A stretch of 47,023 nt of DNA from Lachnospiraceae bacterium (GTDB lineage: Bacteria > Bacillota > Clostridia > Lachnospirales > Lachnospiraceae). The notes beneath the pieces were generated by a model that worked only from the letters and a program-made list of their open reading frames with translations, had not been told where the DNA came from and ran no database searches. Below are positions 6,189-27,591 of the stretch, in pieces (the first letter of the stretch is position 1; each line of letters opens with the position of its first letter). Position numbers and translations under genes: made by a program. The stretch covers positions 1-47,023 of the forward strand of contig JAAUZD010000051.1 of NCBI GenBank assembly GCA_014804785.1, given 5' to 3'.

Positions 6189-6351
6189 GTTCTATTTTCC
6201 TCCTGCTTCATTTCCAAATTCTGTCTCATTTAAGACAAATATTTGTAATAAAAATCATTCACAAATTGGCAGGAAAATATTCATCATTTTAGAACCCTTT
6301 TTTAATCCTTACATAAAATAATATATACAGAGAAAAAGAAAGGTTACGGAT

Positions 6352-6585
6352 ATGCTCTTTTCTGAATTGAAATGTAAAGATGTAATCAATATGCGGGACT
6401 GTAAAAAACTGGGAAGAATTTCCGATTTGGAATTTGATAAGTGCAGCGGACAGATATGCAAGGTCTTTATCCCAACCGGCAACAAGTTCTTCAATCTGCT
6501 CTGCAGTGAACCAGACATCTGCATTCCCTATAAAGATATTAAGCAGATTGGTCCCGATATCATCATCGTGGATATCCGCTGTTAA
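6352..6585 (+). CDS. YlmC/YmxH-family sporulation protein (PRC-barrel)
   Basis: The 77-residue product (MLFSELKCKDVINMRDCKKLG, then ISDLEFDKCSGQICKVFIPTG, then CIPYKDIKQIGPDIIIVDI) matches the PRC-barrel-like YlmC/YmxH family found in spore formers. Its biochemical function is not established. It lies between sigE and sigG but on the opposite strand, with a GAAAGG ribosome site, and shares a bidirectional terminator with sigE. The position beside sporulation sigma factors supports the assignment. Confidence 0.8.
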   Translation: MLFSELKCKDVINMRDCKKLGRISDLEFDKCSGQICKVFIPTGNKFFNLLCSEPDICIPYKDIKQIGPDIIIVDIRC

Positions 6586-6588
6586 AAA

Positions 6589-6623
6589 GAGCTGGCTCCG
6601 CGGCCAGCTCCTGCATTTTTTTT
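6589..6623. terminator. Bidirectional terminator between ylmC-like gene and sigE
   Basis: A perfect 8-bp stem, GAGCTGGC (6589-6596) with GCCAGCTC (6603-6610), is flanked by AAAAA on the left and a run of eight T on the right. It can terminate both the plus-strand ylmC-like gene and the minus-strand sigE transcript. Confidence 0.8.
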
Positions 6624-6640
6624 AATTACGTGATATCTGC

Positions 6641-7384
6641 TCAATAGCTTTCCCTGAGCAGCTCCTTCTTCAGCCTTTTCATAATCTTTTTTTCCAGTCT
6701 GGAAATATAAGATTGGGAAATTCCAAGAAGCTCCGCCACTTCTTTCTGGGTCATCTCCTGTCCGTCCGGTGTTCCAAGCCCAAAACGCAGGTTGATGATG
6801 GTCTTTTCTCTTTCTGTCAGTTTATCAATCGCCTTTAGAAGCAGCTTACATTCTACTTCATTTTCAATATCCCTGTATATGACGTCTTCATCTGTGCCAA
6901 GAATGTCGGAAAGGAGCAGCTCGTTCCCATCCCAATCCACATTTAAGGGTTCGTCAATAGAGACCTCCAGCTTTGTCTTGTTATTTCTGCGCAAGTACAT
7001 CAATATTTCATTTTCGATACATCTTGACGCATAAGTGGCAAGCTTGATATTTTTTTCCGGGTTAAATGTGTTGATGGACTTAATCAGTCCAATGGTACCT
7101 ATGGATATCAGATCCTCCACCCCCACCCCTGTATTATCAAATTTCTTTGCAATATAAACCACCAGCCGCAGGTTATGTTCTATCAGGATGGACTTTGCCT
7201 CATCCTCATATTCTGTCCCCAGATCACTGATGACGGCACTTTCCTTTTCACTCTCAAGCGGCGGCGGCAACACCTCTGAACCTCCTATGTAATGTACATC
7301 TCCCTGTCTAGTCAATAAAAAATTAGGCTCCCTCCGGTAAAGCTTGAACTGAAATTTACCCGGGATCGCTACCTTAAAAACCAT
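6641..7384 (-). CDS. sigE: RNA polymerase sporulation sigma factor SigE precursor
   Basis: This is the early mother-cell sigma factor, made as an inactive precursor. From the ATG at 7384 (AAGGAGG eight bases upstream) the product has 247 residues; the frame to 7408 lacks a ribosome site. The pro-region ([18 protein letters not shown]) is followed by the [15 protein letters not shown] segment around the known processing region, then region 2 ([36 protein letters not shown]) and region 4 ([32 protein letters not shown]). SpoIIGA, encoded immediately upstream, is the processing protease. The two genes form the spoIIG operon. Confidence 0.96.
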
Positions 7385-7411
7385 TCTTAACTTCCTCCTT
7401 AAACTCAATCT

Positions 7412-8221
7412 CTATATCGATAATTCCGGCGGCAATATCATCTGATAGCTGCCTTTTCTGGACACCTTTCCTTTAAAAACTGCAATAATTACTTTTTCAA
7501 ACTGTTTTCTTCCCATACTTCCACTTATTTCCATGGTATCTATTTCATATCCCTCCAGCATACCGCTGTCCTTTCCAATGCTGTGATAAGGAATGACCTT
7601 ATATTTTTCTGGTTTCATCCATCGTCTTAAATTTCTCCACTCATCTGCATCCAGTATTGCCACCGGCTTTTGGCTGACAGGTTCCACCAGACCGTTTCCG
7701 GTATCAATCAGCGCATCAATCGTCAGAGTGCCCTCATCCCCCGGAATGCTGACCTGACAAAAATGATTCTCCTGTCTCTTCCGATATATGGCAATCAGCT
7801 TCTTGCCAATCATAAAACCGACAAAACCGATTCCAGCAACCACTGATGCGCAGTCGCCATGTTCCGCAAGCCATCTGTTTTTACCCTTAAGAAAGATTAT
7901 GAACCCTCCCATTAAGAAAGATAATATATAGAGAGTTCCTAAAACCCGGAGCAGTTCTTTAAGACCTTTTGTCCTGCATGTAATCTTTATCATCAGCATT
8001 CCTACAGGAATCATCCCAAACAGTACCTTCAGCATATATGATATCCCCGGCAGACACAGGATGATGCAATACCCCGCTGCACCTGCGGCGCTTCCTGCAA
8101 AAATTCTTGGATACGTGGCAGTTTTTCCAAGTACCTTCACAGTAAGTGTGAGCAGGTATAAGTCCATGACCAGATTTAATAAAAATATGCTGTCAATATA
8201 AATGGTACCTTGTAATTGCAC
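7412..8221 (-). CDS. spoIIGA: Sigma-E processing peptidase SpoIIGA
   Basis: SpoIIGA is a septum-located aspartic protease that cleaves pro-SigE after a signal from the forespore. The N-terminal half carries about five membrane segments (YIDSIFLLNLVMDLYLLTLT and following). The cytoplasmic half has the aspartic protease motif ALIDTGNGL with the conserved Asp-Thr-Gly. The frame opens at 8242, but the GTG at 8221, with GGAGGTGAAGG upstream, gives the usual N-terminus (QLQGTIYIDS), so I prefer it (269 residues). It is followed after 27 bases by sigE. Confidence 0.9.
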   Translation of the reverse strand: MQLQGTIYIDSIFLLNLVMDLYLLTLTVKVLGKTATYPRIFAGSAAGAAGYCIILCLPGISYMLKVLFGMIPVGMLMIKITCRTKGLKELLRVLGTLYILSFLMGGFIIFLKGKNRWLAEHGDCASVVAGIGFVGFMIGKKLIAIYRKRQENHFCQVSIPGDEGTLTIDALIDTGNGLVEPVSQKPVAILDADEWRNLRRWMKPEKYKVIPYHSIGKDSGMLEGYEIDTMEISGSMGRKQFEKVIIAVFKGKVSRKGSYQMILPPELSI

Positions 8222-8382: not shown

Positions 8383-8647
8383 GGGGCGTGTATTTATGGC
8401 GCGGGCCGGATAAAAAATCTGCTTCGGACCTTATGGAAGGTGGTTAGAAGAATAAGTATCCCTTTGAATCACCCAGCAATCGTCGGACAGGACGTCCGAC
8501 GAAGGCGTAACTTGGTCCATGGGTGGACCAAATACGCCGCTTGCGTCACTCTTGACACACCTACCAAGGGATACTCTATTCTTCTTACCACCGCACATAG
8601 GTCCGAAGCAGATTTTTTATCCGGCCCGCGCCATAAATACACGCCCC
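8383..8647 (+). repeat. Giant hairpin element, copy 1
   Basis: Arms at 8383-8430 and 8600-8647 are perfect 48-bp inverted repeats. Inside lie a second stem (8456-8464 with 8566-8574) and a core with two nested hairpins: GTCGGAC-AGGAC-GTCCGAC, and GGCGTA followed by TTGGTCC pairing with GGACCAA then TACGCC. The core is shared with two other copies in this window while the arms are not. Outside 8383/8647 the complementarity fades gradually. It fills the gap between the spoIIGA promoter and the end of the aminopeptidase gene. Whether it acts as RNA or DNA is unknown. Confidence 0.85.
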
Positions 8648-17826: not shown

Positions 17827-18472
17827 TCAATTATAATCCATTTTTCCCAAATAAGGAAGAATATTTTCAAAAAGCTGCCTTACCACCGGTGCCGCCACCT
17901 GTCCGCCATAGTAAACCCCCTGCGGATTATGAATGATGACAAGTGCAATCACCTGAGGATCATCTGCCGGTGCAAAGCCTACAAAAGAAGCAATATACCT
18001 TCCGCTTCCTCTGGGAAGCGTCTGGCTGGTTGCCGTCTTTCCTCCCACTCTTGCACCCTCTACGTATCCGTTCTTCCCAGAGCCGTTTTCCACCACCTGC
18101 TCCAGCATCATCCGCATGGTGGCAGAGGTTTCCTCTGATACAATATGCTCTTTTACCGGATAGGAGAACCTTTCAATTTCAGTTCCGTCTCTGTTGGAGG
18201 TCATAACGGCAAGATGCGGCGTGATTCTGTTTCCCCCATTTACGATGGAAGACGCTGTGGTGATAAGCTGTATGGGCGTAATTTGAAAAGATTGACCAAA
18301 AGATACGGTTGCCAGTTCCACAGCTTTCATATCTTCCATTTTATGCATGATGGTTCCCGCTTCCCCCGGCAGATCCACACCGGTTTTGCTTAAAAGGCCG
18401 AACTGGGTAAAATAATGATAATAATTTTCCACTCCCAGCCGGAGGCCCACCGTAATAAATACCGGGTTACAG
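17827..18472 (-). pseudogene. spoVD: SpoVD C-terminal portion (interrupted gene, 3' part)
   Basis: From the junction the frame reads (I)NTCNPVFITVGLRLG, then the rest of a class B transpeptidase domain: TGVDLPGEAGTI, ATVSFGQSFQITPIQLI, the third active-site box as GGKTATSQTLPRG (KTA instead of the usual KTG), and FVGFAPADDPQVIALVII. About 211 residues lie beyond the junction. The same frame continues upstream to 18603 only by overlapping the recombinase 3' end, with no SpoVD similarity there. Joined to the 24200-25294 part in frame it completes SpoVD, the mother-cell PBP for spore cortex. It is called a pseudogene only for the unexcised form. Confidence 0.9.
18463..18472. other. Candidate att core, recombinase side
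   Basis: The sequence CGGGTTACAG is identical to 24200-24209. It lies 42 bases from the recombinase stop codon and within the SpoVD codons for T/S-C-N-P. Flanking bases remain similar for several positions (…GTGTTTATG against …CTGTTCATG). Serine recombinases need only a 2-bp crossover inside imperfectly matching arms, so the exact exchange point cannot be fixed. Confidence 0.75.
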
Positions 18473-18514
18473 GTGTTTATGAAACTATCAAGAAGCGCTT
18501 TAATATACGTTTCC

Positions 18515-20089
18515 CTAACACCTTCCTTGATAAATAACCTCCTTCCGGCACTCCCTTTCCAGCTCAAAAGAAATGAAAAGTCTGCCGTCTTTATGTACCT
18601 CAATCTGATAAATCTGCTTTAAAAATGTTTTTGTCTCTGCCTTACCAATCAGATTTTCTTTCAAGATCGCTGTTTTGATATCTTCCATTCGCGCCTCATA
18701 ATTATTATATTGCAGATGATTTTGCTTTATGCCGCTTATTTTGCTCTCAATCATCCTGCATCTGTCTGCTATATCGGCGCTGTATTTTTCATAATCCAGA
18801 TCATTAATCACACCGCTTAACAGCTTTTCTACCAGAGTATCTTTTCTGGACAGTAGTTTTTTATGCTCTTTTTCAAGCTTTTTCAATTCCCTTTTCCCGT
18901 TTTGCGATTCCAGTGCCTTTCCCATGATATGCATTATGTCCGTAAGCAGTTGTTCCTCCCCGCAAAGGGGTTCATAATCATTCTTAAGGGCATCCCCTAC
19001 ACAGGCAAGAAGCTTTTCTTCCGAAAGGTTAATGTTATCGCATCCCCTTCCATGCGCCTTTCCCCCTGCCCTGCCATTTTCCAGAAAAGTGGCGCATTTC
19101 CATACCACTTTTCTTCCCTTTCCGGAGGCATAGCTGGTTCTGTAATAATATCTCCCGCACTCCGCACACTTTAATTTCCTGGTCAACGCGTATTTTCCAC
19201 CATATTTCTTTTCACAGGAATTGATTCCATTCCGGCAGTTTACAGCTCTTTTTTTCATGACAGTAATCACTTCCTCCTGATATTCCCTGGAAACAATCGG
19301 CGGCAGTGCATTCTCCATAGTGATCCATTCCTTCTCGGGCACCTCCTCATACCTTTTCATGTCAAAATTGTAAGTCTTCCTATTTAATATCATGGTTCCG
19401 TGAGCTCTAGGCGTATACAGCATTTTCCGCCATTGGACCTCTGATATTTTCTGTCCCCGTCTTCCTCTGGCTCCCAGTTCATACAAGGTGTTGCTTATGG
19501 TATAAAAACCTTTTCCCTCCTTTGCCAGCGCAAACGCAGTTCTATAATACTCCGCCTCCTCTTCATTGATCTCATAACTGTCCTTCCCCACCTTATTCCA
19601 TCCAAACATATCGCAGGTGATATTGCACCCGCTCCTTTTTTCCTGCCTTCTTTTATGGGCATTTTTAATTTTCTTTGACAATTCTCTGCTAAAATCCTCT
19701 GCCAATATTGCTTTGATACCGGAAATCAGATTATCATCAGGAGTATAAAATTTTCCTTCTATATATATATATAATTTCAATCTGTTCTCTGTAAGTCTGC
19801 TTAAGAAAAAGTACCAGTCTTTTGCCGAGCGCGTAAGTCTGTCAATGGATTTGATCATAACGATGTCAAATCTGTCTTTTTCCATGTCCTCCAGCAGCCT
19901 TTGATATTCTCCGCGTTTGTATGCCACTGTTCCGGTCTGGGACTCAATATACTGTTCCGCAATCCTCCATCCTTTTCTCTCCGCTATCTCCCTACTCTCA
20001 AAAGCCTGGGTTGCAAGCGCATTCATCTGACTTTCCTCCTCCGTGCTGCATCTGTTATAAATTCCCACTCTTTCCAACTTCTTCTCCAT
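18515..20089 (-). CDS. Large serine recombinase (SpoIVCA/TnpX type)
   Basis: The product is a 524-residue site-specific recombinase. The N-terminal resolvase domain carries the catalytic Ser15 in YNRCSTEEE, followed by GTVAYKRGEYQRLLEDM, FDIVMIKSIDRLTRSAKD and the SRELSKKIKNAHKRR linker. Next come a recombinase domain (residues about 160-270), a zinc ribbon (LKCAECGRYYYR, later KCATF and RGCDNI) and a coiled coil (KRELKKLEKEHKKLLSRKD). The ATG at 20089 fits the family start; a GTG at 20122 is an alternative, and neither has a good ribosome site, so coupling to the overlapping upstream ORF is likely. It reads toward the att core, like spoIVCA at the end of skin. I infer it excises the element. 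Confidence 0.92.
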   Translation of the reverse strand: MEKKLERVGIYNRCSTEEESQMNALATQAFESREIAERKGWRIAEQYIESQTGTVAYKRGEYQRLLEDMEKDRFDIVMIKSIDRLTRSAKDWYFFLSRLTENRLKLYIYIEGKFYTPDDNLISGIKAILAEDFSRELSKKIKNAHKRRQEKRSGCNITCDMFGWNKVGKDSYEINEEEAEYYRTAFALAKEGKGFYTISNTLYELGARGRRGQKISEVQWRKMLYTPRAHGTMILNRKTYNFDMKRYEEVPEKEWITMENALPPIVSREYQEEVITVMKKRAVNCRNGINSCEKKYGGKYALTRKLKCAECGRYYYRTSYASGKGRKVVWKCATFLENGRAGGKAHGRGCDNINLSEEKLLACVGDALKNDYEPLCGEEQLLTDIMHIMGKALESQNGKRELKKLEKEHKKLLSRKDTLVEKLLSGVINDLDYEKYSADIADRCRMIESKISGIKQNHLQYNNYEARMEDIKTAILKENLIGKAETKTFLKQIYQIEVHKDGRLFISFELERECRKEVIYQGRC

Positions 20090-20234
20090 TCCGAAATGAC
20101 ACAAATCCCTGCATCTCCTCACGTGCTATGATGATCTTCACAGTGTTTTCCTCTGCGCTGCTGATCAATCCTCTTTCTGCCAGCAATTCTGAAATATGAA
20201 CCAACATCTGCTTTCTCATTTCACTTTTTTCCAT
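20055..20234 (-). CDS. Small ORF overlapping the recombinase start
   Basis: A 59-codon ORF begins with ATG at 20234, preceded by AAAGGA, and ends inside the recombinase gene with a 35-base overlap in another frame. The product (MEKSEMRKQMLVHISELLAE, then RGLISSAEENTVKIII) is a short helical protein like the SHOCT-like small proteins often encoded beside serine recombinases. Such partners are candidates for recombination directionality factors. The frame, ribosome site and tight overlap support a real gene; the role is inferred. Confidence 0.6.
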   Translation of the reverse strand: MEKSEMRKQMLVHISELLAERGLISSAEENTVKIIIAREEMQGFVSFRNGEEVGKSGNL

Positions 20235-20331
20235 TATGCCGATTCCTTTAAAGTTTTACTTTAATATATTCTTTACGTGTCCAATTATTAAAAATATATT
20301 ACAAAAATACCTGCCAATACCTCGAAATCCA

Positions 20332-20360
20332 TTGACTTTAGTGCTTTAAACTTGTATAAT
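20332..20360 (+). promoter_or_regulatory. Near-consensus sigma-A promoter of the ABC transporter
   Basis: TTGACT (20332-20337) and TATAAT (20355-20360) are separated by exactly 17 bases, about 50 bases before the substrate-binding protein start. This predicts strong vegetative expression of the transporter, independent of sporulation. Confidence 0.8.
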
Positions 20361-20410
20361 CTGATACGCAGTGATTTATTTCATTGTAATATTTTATGGG
20401 AGGAACCATT

Positions 20411-21463
20411 ATGAAAAAAGCACTTGTATTACTTTTAACCGTAGCTATGGTCAGCGGTCTTGTTGCTTGCGGAAGCACTGATTCAACAACGCAGGAAGCA
20501 TCAACCTCTGAAAGCAGCACGGAAACTACAACAGAAACAGATTCCGCTGACAGCGGAGAAATTGAAAATGTGGAGACAGACGGCACTGTATACACAGTAG
20601 GTATCTGCCAGCTTGTACAGCATGAAGCATTAGATGCCGCTACACAGGGCTTTATGGATGCCTTGACAGAAGAATTAGGCGATCAGGTTACCTTTGATGT
20701 GCAGAATGCGCAGGGTGATTCCAATACCTGTTCCACTATCATCAACAGCTTTGTTTCCAGCAATACAGATTTGATTCTTGCCAACGCCACTCCTGCTCTG
20801 CAGGCTGCTGCAGCTGGAACAAATGAGATTCCGATTCTCGGAACTTCCGTTACAGAATACGGCGTAGCCCTTGATATCGACAACTTTAACGGTATTGTAG
20901 GCGGCAACATCTCCGGTACATCTGATCTTGCTCCTCTTGACGGTCAGGCTGATATGCTTGCAGAATTGTTCCCTGATGCAAAAACAGTTGGTCTGCTTTA
21001 TTGTTCTGCTGAGGCAAATTCCCAGTATCAGGTAGACACCATTAAAGCATTTCTGGAAGAGAAAGGCTACAGCTGTGAATATTACTCTTTCTCAGACTCC
21101 AATGATATTTCTGCCGTAACAACGAACGCTACTGCTTCTGTTGATGTTATCTACATTCCTACAGACAACACTGCTGCTTCTAACGCAGAACTGATTAACA
21201 ACATTTGTCTTCCTGCTGGTATTCCAATCGTTGCAGGTGAAGAAGGAATCTGTGCAGGATGCGGTGTCGCTACTTTATCTATCAGCTACTACGATATCGG
21301 TGTTGCTACCGGTAAGATGGCTGCAAAGATTCTTGCTGAGGGCGCTGACATCTCCACGATGCCCATTGAATATGCACCTACCTTCACTAAGAAATACAAT
21401 GCAGCAAACTGCGAAGCATTAAATGTCACCATTCCCGATGATTATGTGGCAATCGAAGAGTAA
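20411..21463 (+). CDS. ABC transporter substrate-binding lipoprotein (TrpX/DUF534 family)
   Basis: The product is 350 residues from the ATG at 20411 (GGGAGG upstream). A signal peptide (MKKALVLLLTVAMVSG) ends in the lipobox LVAC, then a Ser/Thr/Glu-rich linker, then a periplasmic-binding fold of the PF04392 type (YTVGICQLVQHEALDAATQG, the start of the domain; PTDNTAASNAELINNICLPAGIP; GVATLSISYYDIGVATGKMA). Members of this family work with a permease and ATPase like those that follow; TrpX of streptococci is linked to tryptophan import. The actual ligand is unknown here. It is cargo of the spoVD-interrupting element. Confidence 0.88.
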   Translation: MKKALVLLLTVAMVSGLVACGSTDSTTQEASTSESSTETTTETDSADSGEIENVETDGTVYTVGICQLVQHEALDAATQGFMDALTEELGDQVTFDVQNAQGDSNTCSTIINSFVSSNTDLILANATPALQAAAAGTNEIPILGTSVTEYGVALDIDNFNGIVGGNISGTSDLAPLDGQADMLAELFPDAKTVGLLYCSAEANSQYQVDTIKAFLEEKGYSCEYYSFSDSNDISAVTTNATASVDVIYIPTDNTAASNAELINNICLPAGIPIVAGEEGICAGCGVATLSISYYDIGVATGKMAAKILAEGADISTMPIEYAPTFTKKYNAANCEALNVTIPDDYVAIEE

Positions 21464-21554
21464 TCAGCAATGACCAACATGGCTACTGCATGCGGTCTAC
21501 AAGCCGGATGACTGCATCTTCTGCAGGCAGATGGGCTTATTGATTTAAACCTTG

Positions 21555-21588
21555 CAGCGGGAGAATATATTCTCTCGCTGTTTTTTTT
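21555..21588 (+). terminator. Attenuator/terminator between binding protein and permease
   Basis: The stem CAGCGGGAGAA (21555-21565) with TTCTCTCGCTG (21570-21580, one G-U pair) is followed by eight T. It is a strong intrinsic terminator 90 bases after the binding-protein stop and 15 before the permease start. Partial read-through would give more binding protein than membrane components. Confidence 0.8.
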
Positions 21589-21603
21589 AAATGGAGGGTA
21601 ATC

Positions 21604-22536
21604 ATGAATATCTTATACTTACTGAATTCCATGCCGGGAACCATAGCACAGGGACTTATATGGGGAATCACGGCTATTGGTATTTACATCACCTACCGGA
21701 TTCTTGACTTTGCCGATCTGACCGTTGACGGTTCCTTATGCACCGGCGGCGCTGTCTGCATCGTAATGATGACTTCCGGTCAGAATGTTTTTGTATCCAT
21801 GCTCGTAGCTACCTTAGCGGGTATGCTTGCCGGACTGGTAACCGGACTTTTTCATACTTTTATGGGTATTCCTGCCATTTTGTCTGGCATTTTAACACAA
21901 TTAGGTCTTTATTCCGTAAATCTGAAAATTATGGGAAAGGCGAATCAGGCAATTAACGTCGATAAATACAACCTTTTGGTTTGTTCAAGATATATCAAAG
22001 GAGTGGTCTTCTACAAAAACACTATTTTTGTAGTCGCCATCTGCACACTTATATTAGTAGCTCTTCTTTACTGGTTTTTCGGCACAGAACTTGGATGTGC
22101 GCTCCGTGCAACCGGATGTAATGGTAACATGTCCCGTGCACAGGGAATCAACACAAATTTTTCCAAGGTATTGGGTCTGATGATCTCAAACGGTCTTGTA
22201 GGATTATCCGGCGCTCTGCTTGCACAGTATCAGGGATTTGCCGATGTCAATATGGGGCGCGGTGCAATTGTAATCGGACTTGCCGCAGTCATCATAGGCG
22301 AAGCCGTTTTCGGACGTCTCTTCCATAACTTTGCACTCAAATTAATCAGTGTTGTCCTAGGCTCTATCCTTTACTATGTTGTTCTCCAGACAGTCGTATG
22401 GATGGGTATTGTGGATACTGACAATTTGAAGTTATTGACTGCACTTATCGTTGCCGTTTTTCTTGCTATTCCCTACTGGAAAGGCAAATACTTCAGCAAA
22501 GCTACTGTAAAGAAGGGAGGAGACACCAATGCTTGA
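21604..22536 (+). CDS. ABC transporter permease (TrpY-like)
   Basis: The 310-residue polytopic protein has about eight to nine membrane segments (GLIWGITAIGIYITYRIL, DLTVDGSLCTGGAVCIV, and others) and belongs to the branched-chain amino acid/TrpY-type permease family. The motif ALRATGCNGNMSRAQGINTN is the ATPase-contact loop. GGAGGG lies before the ATG. It overlaps the ATPase gene by 8 bases. It forms the membrane channel for the preceding lipoprotein. Confidence 0.9.
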   Translation: MNILYLLNSMPGTIAQGLIWGITAIGIYITYRILDFADLTVDGSLCTGGAVCIVMMTSGQNVFVSMLVATLAGMLAGLVTGLFHTFMGIPAILSGILTQLGLYSVNLKIMGKANQAINVDKYNLLVCSRYIKGVVFYKNTIFVVAICTLILVALLYWFFGTELGCALRATGCNGNMSRAQGINTNFSKVLGLMISNGLVGLSGALLAQYQGFADVNMGRGAIVIGLAAVIIGEAVFGRLFHNFALKLISVVLGSILYYVVLQTVVWMGIVDTDNLKLLTALIVAVFLAIPYWKGKYFSKATVKKGGDTNA

Positions 22537-23323
22537 AATCAAGAATGTCACTAAAGTATTTAATCCCGGAACGGTAAATGAAAAACTGGCTCTGGACAAT
22601 TTTTCCCTTACTCTTGAGGACGGCGATTTTGTCACTGTCATCGGTGGAAATGGCGCAGGCAAATCAACCATGATGAATGCCATTGCAGGCACATGGACCG
22701 TGGATGCCGGTCAGATTCTGATTGACAACATTGATGTCACAAAGCTGCCCGAACATAAACGCGCTAAATTCCTGGGACGCGTTTTCCAGGATCCCATGAC
22801 TGGAACTGCAGCAACCATGGGAATTGAGGAAAATCTCGCACTGGCGAAACGCCGCGGTCACTTCCGTTTCCTAACACCGGGCATTACCAAAAAAGAACGG
22901 GAAGAGTACAGGGAACTGTTAAAAATATTAGATTTAGGTCTGGAAACCCGCCTTACCTCCAAGGTAGGTCTATTATCCGGCGGACAACGTCAGGCGCTGA
23001 CCCTGCTCATGGCGACCCTCCAAAAGCCCAAACTGCTCCTCTTAGATGAGCATACAGCTGCCCTTGATCCCAAGACTGCCGCAAAGGTTTTAGAGACCAC
23101 GGAGTACATTGTAAGCAAAGATCACTTGACGACCCTTATGATTACACATAACATGAAGGATGCGATTGTTCACGGGAACCGGCTGATTATGCTGATGGAT
23201 GGGAAGATCATTCTGGATATTAGAGGAGAAGAAAAGAAAAAGCTGACGGTCAATGAACTCCTGCAGAAGTTTGAGGCGGCAAGCGGGGAGGAATTTACTA
23301 ACGATCAGGCGATTCTTGGATAA
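22529..23323 (+). CDS. ABC transporter ATP-binding protein (TrpZ-like)
   Basis: The 264-residue ATPase has Walker A GGNGAGKSTMMN, Q-loop region RVFQDPMTGTAA, signature LLSGGQRQALTLL, Walker B LLLLDEHTAALDP and the switch His in LMITHNMKDAI. The start overlaps the permease gene, so they are translationally coupled. It is the last gene of the transporter; giant hairpin copy 2 begins about 50 bases downstream and could end the transcript. Confidence 0.93.
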   Translation: MLEIKNVTKVFNPGTVNEKLALDNFSLTLEDGDFVTVIGGNGAGKSTMMNAIAGTWTVDAGQILIDNIDVTKLPEHKRAKFLGRVFQDPMTGTAATMGIEENLALAKRRGHFRFLTPGITKKEREEYRELLKILDLGLETRLTSKVGLLSGGQRQALTLLMATLQKPKLLLLDEHTAALDPKTAAKVLETTEYIVSKDHLTTLMITHNMKDAIVHGNRLIMLMDGKIILDIRGEEKKKLTVNELLQKFEAASGEEFTNDQAILG

Positions 23324-23373
23324 CGAACAGGTTATTCCCTGGGTGGTAGGTAGTTGAGTGGGTAATTGAAAGA

Positions 23374-23684
23374 GAATGAAGGGATGTGACGGGAGCCTTT
23401 TGGGGATTCGGCATCCGGCTGGACAAAGAAAAATACTCCGGACCTATGTCCGGCAGTAAGAAGGGCTAGGCATCTCTTGTATAGGTGCATCTATGTTGAC
23501 GCAAACGGCGTATTGGTCCATCCATGGACCAAATTACGCCTTCAGCGGACGTCCTGTCCGCTGATTGCTGGGTATCGAAGAGATGCCAAGTCCTTCTAAC
23601 TGCCTTCCATAAGGTTCCGGAGTATTTTTCTTTGTCCAGCCGGATGCCGAATCCCCAAAAGGCTCCCGTCACATCCCTTCATTC
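23374..23684 (-). repeat. Giant hairpin element, copy 2
   Basis: Arms at 23374-23442 and 23616-23684 are perfect 69-bp inverted repeats with no mismatch. The inner stem (GGCATCTCTT with AAGAGATGCC read on the minus strand) and the core match copies 1 and 3 in reverse orientation. Compensatory changes include AGCGGAC/GTCCGCT, where copy 1 has GTCGGAC/GTCCGAC. It lies between convergent genes inside the spoVD-interrupting element. The region 23685-23836 between copies 2 and 3 shows nothing that I can identify. Confidence 0.85.
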
Positions 23685-23836
23685 CCCCCAACGCTTTGGT
23701 ACTCCTGACATTTTCTTTTTTAGTTCTTTATTGTCTTTTATCTTCTCAATAGTGAATTCTCACCAAAAAATCATTACCAAAAATTATACAAGGCTTTACA
23801 TTAGCATATTCCTTTAAGAGTGGGAAGAACGTAGCT

Positions 23837-24173
23837 GGCAAATGGAAGCAGTGTGGTGTGCGGATTTTGGGGCTGGGAGTGCGGCGCTGGGGACCGACGG
23901 TGCAAAAAACTCCCCAGAACCTTATGGGAAGTGGTTAGAAGGATTTGACAGCCCTTTGGGTACACAGCAATCGGCGGACAGGACGTCCGACGAAGGCGTA
24001 ATTTGACCCATGGATGGGTCAATACGCCGTTTGCGTCCGGCGCCAGTCCCCAAACAAGGGCTGTCTAATCCTTCTTACCACTGTACATAGGTTCTGGGGA
24101 GTTTTTTGCACCGTCAGCCCCCAGCGCCGCACTCCCAGCCCAAAATCCGCACATCACACTGCTTCCATTTGCC
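23837..24173 (+). repeat. Giant hairpin element, copy 3
   Basis: Arms of 85 and 84 bases (23837-23921, 24090-24173) pair with one single-base gap and a few mismatches. The inner stem is GACAGCCCTT with AAGGGCTGTC. The core hairpin has TTGACCC/GGGTCAA where copies 1 and 2 have TTGGTCC/GGACCAA, a double compensatory change. Orientation is as in copy 1. It ends about 27 bases before the att core, just beyond the broken spoVD reading frame. Confidence 0.82.
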
Positions 24174-24199
24174 CTCTCCCCTCTCCGTTCCATAAACAT

Positions 24200-24209
24200 C
24201 GGGTTACAG
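24200..24209. other. Candidate att core, spoVD 5' side
   Basis: CGGGTTACAG is identical to 18463-18472 and falls on the SpoVD codons for S-C-N-P. Past this point the frame loses all SpoVD similarity and runs into hairpin copy 3. Confidence 0.75.
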
Positions 24210-25294
24210 CTGTTCATGGTTGCCTGCACAAAATTCTCTGCCCCATGCCCCGCTATTTTATGACATCGTATTTTTCTATCCTCCACCATAATATACCCCG
24301 GACAGCTGAACTGATCTTCCGTGGTGACCACACCTCCCTCCAGTCCGGCTGCCGCTGTGACAATTTTGAACGTGGATCCCGGCTCATAGGTATCACTGAT
24401 ACATCCGTTTCTCCACATTCCGTTTAATAGCTCCTGCTTTTTTTCTTCTGTGAGCCCTGCAGTGTCTATCTCCTCCGTCAAGGTATAAGGCTCATTCAGA
24501 TTAAATTCCGGCACATCTACCATTGCCATAATTTCTCCGTTTTGCGGATTCATGACAATAATCGATACCCTATCCGCCTGTTTGGTCTCCATAACCTGTT
24601 TTGCAAGCTGGGTGGCATAGCTTTGGATGTTCATATCCAGACTGGTATACAGATCATTGCCTGCAATGGGTTCAACCCTTTCCTCCCCTGCCGCATCAAG
24701 CTCAACCCCTTTGGCGTCTGTAACTGTGAGAATCATGCCGTCTTCACCCTTTAAATACTCTTCGTATTTGACTTCCAGACCGATAATACCCTGATTATCC
24801 CCTCCTGTGAAGCCCAGAACCTTTGATGCCAGAGAGTCATAGGGATAATAACGCTTGTAATCTTCATCTACCTTGACTCCTTCCAGATTATAGGCGCGGA
24901 TGGCATCTCCAATTTCTTTATCCACATTGCTCTTAATCTTTTCAATCGATGAATACTTTTCAACCCGCTTTCGCACATATTCCTCTGAAAGGTCCAATTC
25001 CCTGCAAAGGACTTCTACAATTTGATCGGGATCTTTAATCTGATTGTGTATGACAGAAATCGTGCAGACGGTCTTATTGTCAGCTATAACGGTTCCGTTT
25101 ACGTCCAGTATCCTTCCCCTGGCCGCTTTGATACTTCTTTCTCTTTCGTGAAGTTCCTTTGCCTTTTCCATATAATAATCTGACTGAAACACCATCAGAT
25201 ATACCAGTCTTCCTGCAAGGACCCCAAAAATCATAATACATGCAAAAAATATTGTAACAATCTTTTTTCTGTTATAGGTTTTGTTTTTAATCAT
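24200..25294 (-). pseudogene. spoVD: SpoVD N-terminal portion (interrupted gene, 5' part)
   Basis: The first 365 residues of a class B penicillin-binding protein: an N-terminal membrane anchor (residues about 10-33), the dimerisation domain (RGRILDVNGTVIADN, YYPYDSLASKVLGFTGGDNQG), and the start of the transpeptidase domain with the active-site STFK at about residue 307 (TYEPGSTFKIVTAAAG) and the SxN motif as S-C-N at 362. After N-P the frame enters the element and adds 44 unrelated residues to 24065. The missing 211 residues are at 17827-18472. SpoVD makes spore cortex peptidoglycan and is needed only in sporulating cells, so interruption is tolerable in vegetative growth. Confidence 0.92.
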
Positions 25295-25297
25295 AAA

Positions 25298-25347
25298 AAC
25301 CTCATAGAAAAGGTATTATTACAATCTATTACCTATTCTATGAGGTT
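25298..25347 (-). promoter_or_regulatory. Hairpin over the spoVD ribosome site
   Basis: Arms at 25298-25315 and 25330-25347 pair almost completely (one mismatch). On the minus strand the 3' arm contains the GAGG ribosome site of spoVD and is followed by TTTTT running into the ATG at 25294. It may act as a terminator after ftsI, or mask spoVD translation, keeping the vegetative and sporulation genes apart. Confidence 0.65.
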
Positions 25348-25365
25348 ATTCTTTTAAGATGCTCT

Positions 25366-27591
25366 TTATTCTTCCGCTGCCTGTGAAGGGGAAGGCTCTG
25401 CGCTGTCCTCTGCCCCGCCGGCGCTTTCTCCTAAATCGTAACTTCCGCCAAAGACATAGCCGGTTTCCGGATCCACATAAGCTCCGGTATTAGGGTCTAC
25501 TGCGTAGCCGGTAGCCGGATCAATCGGGAAGTTTTTCCACACTGCTTCTTTGGGAGCCTCTTCTTCCCCAGTGCCCTCAGGATTTTCTCCGCCGGATTCC
25601 CCTTCCGGCGAATCGCCTTCTTCTCCTTCCGTTTCTTCCATAACAGGGGGAGTCATGATTTCAATCTGCAATTCTTCAAGTTCTTCAATTTCCTTCTCTG
25701 AGAGTTCTTCTGTCATAAAGATTCCCTTATAAGGGAGCACTTCTGTGAGAATGCTTTTTACGATTCTGGTGGCAAATTTCGCATCATCCATAATGCTTCC
25801 CGGAACATTAGGTCTGTCTACCACCACATAGATAGCAATCTGTGGATCATCTATCGGTGCATATCCCATGAAAGAAACTACATATTCATTATTTCCGCGG
25901 GGCAGGGTTTCGGCAGTTCCCGTTTTTCCGCCGATTAGATATCCGGCAGGTCTTGCAGTCTTTCCTGTTCCGTTTTCTCCTAATACCACCAGATTACACA
26001 TTTCACGCACCTTAGCCGAAGTGCTCTCGGAAATCGTCTGCTTTAAGATTCTCGGTTCTATATTCTGTACCGTGGCCCCCGATGGGCTTACAATTTTACT
26101 GACCAGATGGGGTTCATAATAGTATCCGCCGTTTATCAGCGAACAAAATCCGCTTATCATCTGAATCATAGTGGCGTTGTATCCCTGTCCAAAGCTATTC
26201 GTCGCAAGGTCCGTCAGCCCCATGTTGTCTTTGTTATAAACCACCTTTACCGTCTTCGCCTCACCTGCCAGATCAATGTTGGTCTTAAGTCCGATATTGA
26301 AAGTATGTTGGAAATCAATAAATGTACCCACACCTGTCGCCATGGCAATATACATCATGTTGACATTGCAGGACCGCTCCACCCCCTCTGCAACCGACAA
26401 ATATCCATCGCCATACCTATTATGACAGCTGATATCGTGATCACCCACATGCAGCTTTCCTTCACAATTATATTTTTCATCTCCAGTGATGCTTCCACTT
26501 TCTATTCCCGCTGCTACGGTAAAAGGCTTTGAAACAGACCCGGGCTCATAAGTATCGCTGATGCAGAAATTTTTCCACAGTGCATTCAAATGCCTGTAGA
26601 ACACTTCATTATCTTCCTCTATTGTCTTCAAATTTTCTGCATTAATATATTCCCCGGTTCTCTTTCCCTGTTCATCTATAATAGGCATTCCAATAAGTAC
26701 ATCCGTGTTTCTGGTATCGTTCAGATCATAGGACGGATAACTTGCCATCGCCAGAATCTTGCCGGTGTTTACTTCCATAATGATACAGCCTGTATTCAAA
26801 GCGCCGTAGCCTTCATGCGCATTGTCTCTATACTGCTCATCAAATTTTTTCAAGTATTTTTCCACAATACTTTGTATATTAATATCAATCGTTGATACAA
26901 TGCTGTTGCCATCCTCAGCTGGAATCGTAGTTCTCTGCAGATTGGAATCATCATTGAGATATCCATACTCCCTGCCGGGTATTCCCGACAAAATATCATT
27001 ATAATACTCTTCCAGCCCATAGGATCCCACATTATCGCCGGTAGTAAACCCTATCACATCACAGGCAAGAGTATTTCCCGGATAAGTTCTCTTATACTCC
27101 TCTTCAAACCAGATTCCTTTGATTAAAGAATCCTCCGCATTCTGCATTTCCAGAAAACCTTCAATCTGCTCATATTCCAGACGTCTCGCAAGCACACGAT
27201 AGCGGGAAGTATCCTTATTCGCCGCTATGTAAGTTCGTACATCAGAAATATCAATCCCAAGCTGGCTTCGCAATGCCTCAAGAGTAGGTTCCAGATATTC
27301 TTCCTTCTCGGATACTGCCACTGCATCCAGTATCACATTATAAACCTTTTCGCTTGTCGCCAGAATGCTTCCATTGGAATCATAAATTGTGCCTCTCTTA
27401 GCAGGAAGCGTTGTGCTATCGTATCTTTGTTGTGAAAGAACCTGTTTTTTGTAACGCTCGCCGTTATCTCTTGTAATGGCAAACAACCGGTAGGACAATC
27501 CCACAAAAGCCAGCAGTACCAATAAAAAAAGTACCACCAGCTTCTTTTGCATCTTAATTGTGAATTTACTGTATTTCCTTTTGCTATCCAA
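25366..27591 (-). CDS. ftsI: Class B penicillin-binding protein FtsI/PBP2B-like
   Basis: The 741-residue division transpeptidase has one N-terminal membrane span (LVVLFLLVLLAFVGLSYRLF), a pedestal domain (LPAKRGTIYDSNGSILATS), and a transpeptidase domain with SxxK as SVSK (YEPGSVSKPFT), SxN as SCN (VERSCNVNMMY) and KTG in GGKTGTAETLPRG. The last 100 residues are Glu/Gly/Pro-rich with short D-P-x-T-G-Y/A repeats (DPATGYAVDPNTGAYVDP), an extension of unknown role that makes it longer than most FtsI. It cross-links septal peptidoglycan with FtsW. It directly follows ftsL. Confidence 0.92.
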   Translation of the reverse strand: MDSKRKYSKFTIKMQKKLVVLFLLVLLAFVGLSYRLFAITRDNGERYKKQVLSQQRYDSTTLPAKRGTIYDSNGSILATSEKVYNVILDAVAVSEKEEYLEPTLEALRSQLGIDISDVRTYIAANKDTSRYRVLARRLEYEQIEGFLEMQNAEDSLIKGIWFEEEYKRTYPGNTLACDVIGFTTGDNVGSYGLEEYYNDILSGIPGREYGYLNDDSNLQRTTIPAEDGNSIVSTIDINIQSIVEKYLKKFDEQYRDNAHEGYGALNTGCIIMEVNTGKILAMASYPSYDLNDTRNTDVLIGMPIIDEQGKRTGEYINAENLKTIEEDNEVFYRHLNALWKNFCISDTYEPGSVSKPFTVAAGIESGSITGDEKYNCEGKLHVGDHDISCHNRYGDGYLSVAEGVERSCNVNMMYIAMATGVGTFIDFQHTFNIGLKTNIDLAGEAKTVKVVYNKDNMGLTDLATNSFGQGYNATMIQMISGFCSLINGGYYYEPHLVSKIVSPSGATVQNIEPRILKQTISESTSAKVREMCNLVVLGENGTGKTARPAGYLIGGKTGTAETLPRGNNEYVVSFMGYAPIDDPQIAIYVVVDRPNVPGSIMDDAKFATRIVKSILTEVLPYKGIFMTEELSEKEIEELEELQIEIMTPPVMEETEGEEGDSPEGESGGENPEGTGEEEAPKEAVWKNFPIDPATGYAVDPNTGAYVDPETGYVFGGSYDLGESAGGAEDSAEPSPSQAAEE

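Follow-up and report, generated by a model that had tools for sequence, protein, structure and literature searches.

Known intervening elements and the split spoVD

Sporulation genes divided by a removable element make up a short list. The description of the yin element names sigK, spsM, spoVFB and gerE together with yabG as such genes (PMC10747680). The skin element in sigK of Clostridioides difficile carries 19 genes and leaves the gene in the mother cell, where sigma E acts through a directionality factor; according to the same report, its large serine recombinase (LSR) is constitutive and only the directionality factor is under sigma-E control (PMC5025042). In some strains of Bacillus cereus and B. 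toyonensis, gerE is interrupted by gin, a non-phage element that spans 28.6 kb and comprises 31 genes, with three recombinases. It has a 9 bp core and is served by the LSR GirC together with the directionality factor GirX, and gerE is rejoined in sporulation (PMC5595907). SP-beta intervenes in spsM (PMC4191935), vfbin in spoVFB and yin in yabG (PMC10747680). Here we describe a stretch of 47,023 nucleotides from a Lachnospiraceae bacterium (contig JAAUZD010000051.1 of assembly GCA_014804785.1; the whole stretch is called the window), in which spoVD, the gene of a cortex penicillin-binding protein (PBP), is divided by an element of 5.7 kb.

The element resembles gin, as reported, in being a non-phage element within a sporulation gene, with a short core, an LSR and a small open reading frame (ORF) that is a candidate directionality factor. 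It differs from gin in its size, its single LSR, its host gene and its metabolic cargo, and in having relatives across the Lachnospiraceae (PMC5595907). As in the skin of C. difficile, the LSR gene adjoins the 3′ half of the host gene; unlike the arrangement reported there, the small ORF and the LSR seem to be under one shared sigma-E-like promoter, and the host gene is spoVD rather than sigK (PMC5025042). SP-beta, vfbin and yin are described in their reports as prophages or prophage-like and lie in other genes, whereas phage structural genes are absent from the window element. Some relatives recall integrative and conjugative or mobilizable elements with a serine recombinase in that they have a coupling protein or a relaxase (loci L059, L065 and L071; L and G numbers are our labels for loci and genomes). 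The ORFs of the window element include no such genes, and within the genus the element's inheritance mostly follows that of the host. For spoVD itself, a laboratory secondary insertion of ICEBs1 is reported in Bacillus subtilis, with undetectable excision (PMC3715440). A naturally split spoVD was not found in the literature searched (full text; bioRxiv and most subscription papers lay outside its scope). The spoVD element very probably belongs to the kind that skin and gin exemplify and is new, as far as we found, in its host gene.

The split gene and its junctions

On the minus strand of the window spoVD lies in two parts with 5,737 bp between them. The features that carry the argument are as follows.

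24203..25294, minus strand: 5′ part of spoVD, 364 codons, stopping inside the S-C-N active-site motif (TIGR02214, 323 bits)
17827..18465, minus strand: 3′ part of spoVD, 212 codons plus stop (TIGR02214, 249 bits)
24192..24218, minus strand: attL, shared core 24209-24200, probable crossover AA 24205-24204 (repeat comparison and joins)
18455..18481, minus strand: attR, shared core 18472-18463, probable crossover AA 18468-18467 (repeat comparison and joins)
18515..20122, minus strand: LSR with Resolvase, Recombinase and Zn-ribbon domains (domain matches)

The reading frame runs from 25294 to the Asn codon at 24205-24203 and picks up again at 18468. The 10-mer CTGTAACCCG (minus strand) is identical at both breaks, within a wider repeat of 27 nucleotides at 85% identity. 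Joined at this core, the halves give an open protein of 576 residues with a single terminal stop, which reads NSCNPVFITVGLRLG. Between the core and the end of the LSR gene, at 18515, lie 42 bases. Our re-reading of the window confirms the split described in the initial annotation. The motif cut by the break is the S-x-N motif of the transpeptidase. Of the TIGR02214 SpoVD profile, the N-half ORF covers positions 2-351 and the C-half ORF positions 338-559. The uninterrupted SpoVD of three relatives scores 552-571 bits; since these intact proteins too fall under the NCBI cut-off of 688 bits, a score below it is normal in this group.

The initial annotation had the halves joined at the shared bases. 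The in-frame join stands, but the 10-mer as a whole does not appear to be the exchange site. In all 27 deduplicated loci with both ends, a join at the shared AA gives NSCNPVF, in the active-site motif. Across these loci attL and attR agree throughout only at the Asn codon's AA, a single preceding G and a single following C, and in four of them (L056, L062, L066 and L136) the shared run is reduced to the AA alone. Because only this AA lies within the shared run of every locus, it is probably where the crossover occurs. In 16 of the 27 loci the N half has Lys at the motif Asn codon, and joining brings the Asn back. That the identical break recurs across many genomes argues that its position in spoVD is more than chance.

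The LSR has 535 residues counted from a GTG start; the start common with relatives is probably the ATG at 20089. Mutated catalytic residues would have contradicted the initial annotation, but alignment with the TP901-1 integrase shows that the conserved catalytic region is kept.

A second intact spoVD would likewise have contradicted it; a profile search of the window's genome (3.97 Mb, 99.5% complete) found none. The same held for all 19 split genomes searched, several of them incomplete assemblies: 17 of the window's genus together with G122 and G064, with completeness as low as 61% (G064) and 59% (G404). No full-length SpoVD was found there besides the halves, and each of the 19 has both halves together with the upstream PBP, the latter at 372-416 bits, while the three intact controls all yield a full-length SpoVD (559-571 bits). 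Stops flagged for some halves reflect a profile match overrunning the break or the gene end; with the search bounded to the halves, none was found inside them at the split loci of the genus. One neighbouring gene was considered as a spare.

25366..27591, minus strand: tandem class B PBP, intact, lying upstream of spoVD, 741 residues (domain and profile matches)

It was rejected as a spare spoVD: it scores 386 bits and has a counterpart in all 19 split and all three intact genomes, and is part of the host context.

Occupancy of the site among relatives

An LSR match at E <= 1e-60 was found in 25 of 397 genomes of the family. In the four with at least 49% identity (the window, G264, G064 and G122) the LSR lies inside spoVD, and in the remaining 21 the flank examined held no spoVD C half. 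A search for SpoVD halves in 396 family genomes matched 267, and among the matches listed a short open frame occurred only in G000, G264 and G122. As to spread beyond the family, the window's own genome gave the sole LSR match at 1e-120 in a class-wide draw (1/391).

A further scan, of GTDB contigs, looked for just two short peptide patterns, which spoVD elements with other LSRs would escape; it returned 52 public loci with a related LSR. All 37 LSRs at least 45% identical adjoin a spoVD C half, 26 of them with an N half as well and 11 without one in the stretch examined; none of the 15 more distant LSRs (<=41% identity) is at spoVD. In a quick tree the 38 spoVD LSRs form one clade apart from the 15 others, with a support of 100 in the Shimodaira–Hasegawa-like approximate likelihood ratio test (SH-aLRT). 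At the limits used, plasmids, phages and viral contigs yielded no member of this clade, with identities of at best 32.8%, 39.7% and 35%, respectively. A phage origin was rejected on this ground, together with the want of any structural gene in a scan of the window element against PHROGs. Among the nearest LSRs outside spoVD (L074, L076, L079, L080, L084, L085, L088 and L090), several lie near a similar ABC permease gene, which suggests that they use another preferred site there.

The genus of the window has 37 genomes, of which 35 contain an N half (17 split and 18 intact) and two are unmatched. Relatives with an uninterrupted spoVD, the comparison to which the initial annotation had pointed, favour its reading: all 18 intact genomes are contiguous across the site in the same register. 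Two of the split genomes have the C half on a different contig: that of G423 adjoins the LSR, and that of G420 is at a contig edge. LSRs with 50% identity or more occur in 16 of the 17 split genomes (none was found in G420) and in none of the 18 intact ones, five of which hold LSRs of just 32-43% identity.

By parsimony on the SpoVD tree, the split and intact states imply five changes, at least three of them forced by starred branches. One sub-clade (90/64 overall, its inner forks better supported) brings together two split genomes and five intact ones (G401, G422, G424, G429 and G431). None of these five has trpX, the TrpX-like cargo gene of the element, at 1e-40, with G431 being 59% complete. 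Clean loss of element and cargo is probably the simplest account of this sub-clade, and transfer is an alternative. In split species the TrpX-like gene is part of the spoVD element; among the 18 intact genomes it is located elsewhere in 10 and lacking in eight. The trpX operon was either captured by the element or released from it.

Selection and inheritance

For the genus, the median ratio of nonsynonymous to synonymous substitution rates (dN/dS) of the N half is 0.030 in split genomes (45 of 136 pairs usable) and 0.040 in intact ones (37 of 153). For the C half it is 0.038 (104 of 105 pairs) and 0.053 (144 of 153), respectively. Of 11 close pairs, one is saturated in dS and the other 10 give the LSR a dN/dS of 0.06-0.17. 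Both halves, the LSR and the cargo are under purifying selection.

Trees of the host gene and the LSR for 16 genus-type loci have 10 of 13 splits in common, against a mean of 0.41 and a maximum of 4 in 500 label shuffles. The comparison excluded L133, a visible exception with an LSR of another sub-clade; keeping L133 in gives a distance correlation of 0.47 (Mantel p 0.004). In pairs within the genus, LSR dS and spoVD dS are of similar order. As the two trees largely agree, the element appears to have been inherited mostly with its host in the genus. L133 (= L070) combines a genus-type host gene and TrpX-like cargo with an LSR at 50% identity, an apparent replacement of the recombinase in place.

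Candidate control of excision

Two features ahead of the LSR may bear on when the element leaves.

20055..20234, minus strand: ORF of 59 residues overlapping the LSR start, candidate recombination directionality factor (counterpart in relatives)
20263..20290, minus strand: sigma-E-like promoter candidate TAATAATTGGACACGTAAAGAATATATT, 56 nucleotides ahead of the small ORF (assumed consensus; window p = 0.10)

A small ORF lies directly upstream of the LSR or overlaps it in 34 of the 38 elements; several of these are weak matches, and the assignment for L132 and L134 goes by position and ORF only. It has no Pfam or PHROGs match. GirX of gin, for comparison, has 42 residues (PMC5595907). Three elements have a truncated LSR of 284-289 residues adjoining the spoVD C half and no small ORF (L075 9992-10846, L081 3215-4084 and L083 10001-10864); the two that were scanned, L075 and L083, have no Zn-ribbon, and the L081/L083 pair has a dN/dS of 0.058, which indicates purifying selection. 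The directionality factor of phiC31 is reported to bind the zinc-domain region (PMC5814800), and the joint loss of the small ORF and the C-terminal region of the LSR therefore fits a role in directionality, for which the small ORF is a candidate. Small ORFs also sit ahead of some of the nearest LSRs outside the spoVD clade.

A two-block motif recurs upstream of the small ORF. Scored with an assumed sigma-E consensus, the best site there averages 10.03 against 8.25 in shuffled sequences over 29 of the 38 loci (Wilcoxon 5e-8, uncorrected for the kinship of the loci), and 27 of the 29 score above their own shuffle mean. The nine loci left out were L056, L063, L069, L075, L081, L083, L092, L128 and L136, four of which (L069, L075, L081 and L083) have no small ORF; the starts of the small ORFs were picked by hand, some at internal Met codons. 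An earlier, wider scan, which took in 38 upstream regions, yielded a smaller excess (10.09 vs 9.11). In the window's genome CATACATT stands upstream of spoIVA and is similar to the assumed sigma-E -10 consensus. In B. subtilis, spoVD is itself listed with the sigma-E-controlled cortex genes (PMC517825).

Interpretation and alternatives

We consider it very probable that spoVD carries a mostly vertically inherited, skin-like element that is excised in the mother cell. The reading as a sporulation-intervening element, offered in the initial annotation, gains support from the recurrent occupancy of the site, the in-frame joins, purifying selection, co-descent and the sigma-E-like site. During growth spoVD would be split and silent, with the cargo genes retained and in use. 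A sigma-E-type promoter would, in the sporulating mother cell, turn on the small ORF, as directionality factor, and the LSR, which would recombine attL with attR at the AA, so that the element departs as a circle. The rejoined spoVD, with its S-C-N active-site motif in frame, would then allow cortex peptidoglycan to be made. The forespore chromosome would retain the element and pass it to the progeny.

The sequences show the split state, the in-frame join, the conserved site, the LSR with its conserved catalytic region, purifying selection and co-descent in the genus, and no spare gene was found; excision, its timing and cell, the directionality factor and the part of sigma E are inferred. Several observations weigh against this reading. 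The small ORF is absent from four of the 38 elements (L069, L075, L081 and L083), and in L069 the LSR is full-length. The sigma-E consensus is an assumed one, the test ignores relatedness and only 15 of the 29 loci reach p <= 0.05 singly; the site in the window has p = 0.10, and two of the 29 (L057 and L134) fall under their own shuffle mean. For the N half, dS is saturated in many pairs, which leaves the 45 of 136 given above. Descent is not purely vertical either, with a foreign LSR in L133. LSR dS is far under spoVD dS in the pairs L060-L063 (0.49 vs 1.56) and L081-L083 (0.42 vs 0.87), as is trpX dS in L123-L125 (0.09 vs 0.55), so some exchange has occurred.

The alternative that survives best, though we think it unlikely, is that the element excises and restores spoVD constitutively, stochastically or along with its own transfer, with no tie to the mother cell. 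The conjugation or mobilization genes of L059, L065 and L071 agree with it, as does the probable precise loss during evolution, seen in five intact genomes of one sub-clade that lack trpX as well. What speaks for excision in the mother cell instead is the sigma-E-like site, above its own shuffle mean in nearly all the elements scored, and, for the window element, ORFs that include no transfer gene and a long co-inheritance with the host in the genus.

It is much less probable that a mobile element merely inactivated spoVD and that the host no longer makes normal spores. LSR elements frequently insert into genes. Purifying selection is, however, undiminished on both halves across the split species of the genus, and the LSR too remains under selection. 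The halves at split loci have no internal stop, save in L071, which ends about three residues short of the usual C-terminal end. The window's genome also retains SpoIVA, above its cut-off, and a SigK-like gene, the best of which looks unsplit. Finally, that the halves act together as two separate polypeptides, with no excision of DNA, is scarcely credible: the N half does have an ordinary gene start and 12 of the 38 C halves an in-frame ATG upstream, but in 20 of the 38 the open frame ahead of the break, the stretch considered, lacks a start codon, and the break cuts the active-site motif, where 16 of 27 N halves read Lys.

The initial annotation further has SpoVD required in the mother cell alone, which may not be so in every species. 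In C. difficile SpoVD is reported to act in polar division (PMC12713402), which raises the question of how split species cope before sigma E. The neighbouring PBP may cover that earlier role.

Beyond excision in the mother cell, we lean slightly towards a broader view, in which one LSR lineage of the Lachnospiraceae specializes in the active-site codon of spoVD and has made the gene a stable home for host operons. Their transporters, genes for glycerol and sugars and a chaperone would be kept in growing cells and spores and lost from each mother cell as spoVD is rebuilt. Some lineages may have been simplified to an LSR with neither the Zn-ribbon/coiled-coil region nor a directionality factor, perhaps an excision-only enzyme. 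On this view the element would limit SpoVD to the time after sigma-E activation.

A structural cortex gene thus joins the short list of split sporulation genes, and such splits can pass through many species of gut bacteria, beyond scattered strains. A cargo that is mostly metabolic or signalling rather than phage bears on why intervening elements persist. With split and intact sister species in one genus, named strains included, cost, benefit and timing are directly testable. Listed strains among the carriers include Parablautia muri D42-62 and P. intestinalis D8-82. It should also be noted that carriers can appear spoVD-deficient in genome tables and yet may sporulate.

Cargo and other features

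The remaining features of the window element are listed here.

20396..21463, plus strand: ABC substrate-binding lipoprotein, TrpX-like (230 bits, under the 390 cut-off)
21604..22536, plus strand: ABC permease (BPD_transp_2; domain match)
22529..23323, plus strand: ABC ATPase (domain match)
23374..24184, no strand given: two long hairpin repeats with TwoAYGGAY RNAs (genome-wide repeat)

The five ORFs of the element, scanned against PHROGs, gave only integrase, ABC transporter and weak matches, and there is no relaxase, conjugation or transfer gene among them. A tRNA was rejected as the integration target, there being none in the window. TwoAYGGAY RNAs (RF01731, 104-114 bits) occur at 23445-23611 (minus), 23923-24089 (plus) and 8432-8599 (plus), the first two in the hairpins of the element. 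The 811-bp hairpin block is a dispersed repeat with 53 match rows over both strands of the genome; the hairpins were rejected as element ends on that account and are probably outside the switch.

Where both ends are present, elements span about 3.4-8.7 kb. Eight loci (L055, L059, L060, L061, L064, L065, L071 and L083) have no N half within 10 kb upstream of the LSR, and these elements are accordingly larger or incomplete. A TrpX-like ABC gene is present in 16 of the 17 elements of the genus (it was not found in G420, where the contig ends) and, outside the genus, in L057 and L075. Other elements, with some names assigned by eye, hold a sugar ABC operon with regulators (L055, L061), glycerol kinase with glp genes (L058/L039, L083), Hsp70 with a chemotaxis receptor (L066), a sodium:solute symporter (L073), a CHASE2 cyclase (L064) or a BlaR1-type peptidase gene (L060). 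A relaxase occurs in L065 and L071 and a coupling protein in L059; L056 has proteins with no Pfam match, and L067 little else. The cargo thus consists mostly of ordinary metabolic or signalling operons and not of phage genes. In L052 an IS110-like transposase, named by eye (6332-7543), is inserted between the cargo permease and ATPase genes.

A stable hairpin is predicted over the likely ribosome-binding site of spoVD, at 25295-25360 of the window and at the same place in relatives. Its predicted energy is -22 kcal/mol or lower in 12 of the 14 genus loci folded, split and intact alike, and it may regulate the translation of spoVD.

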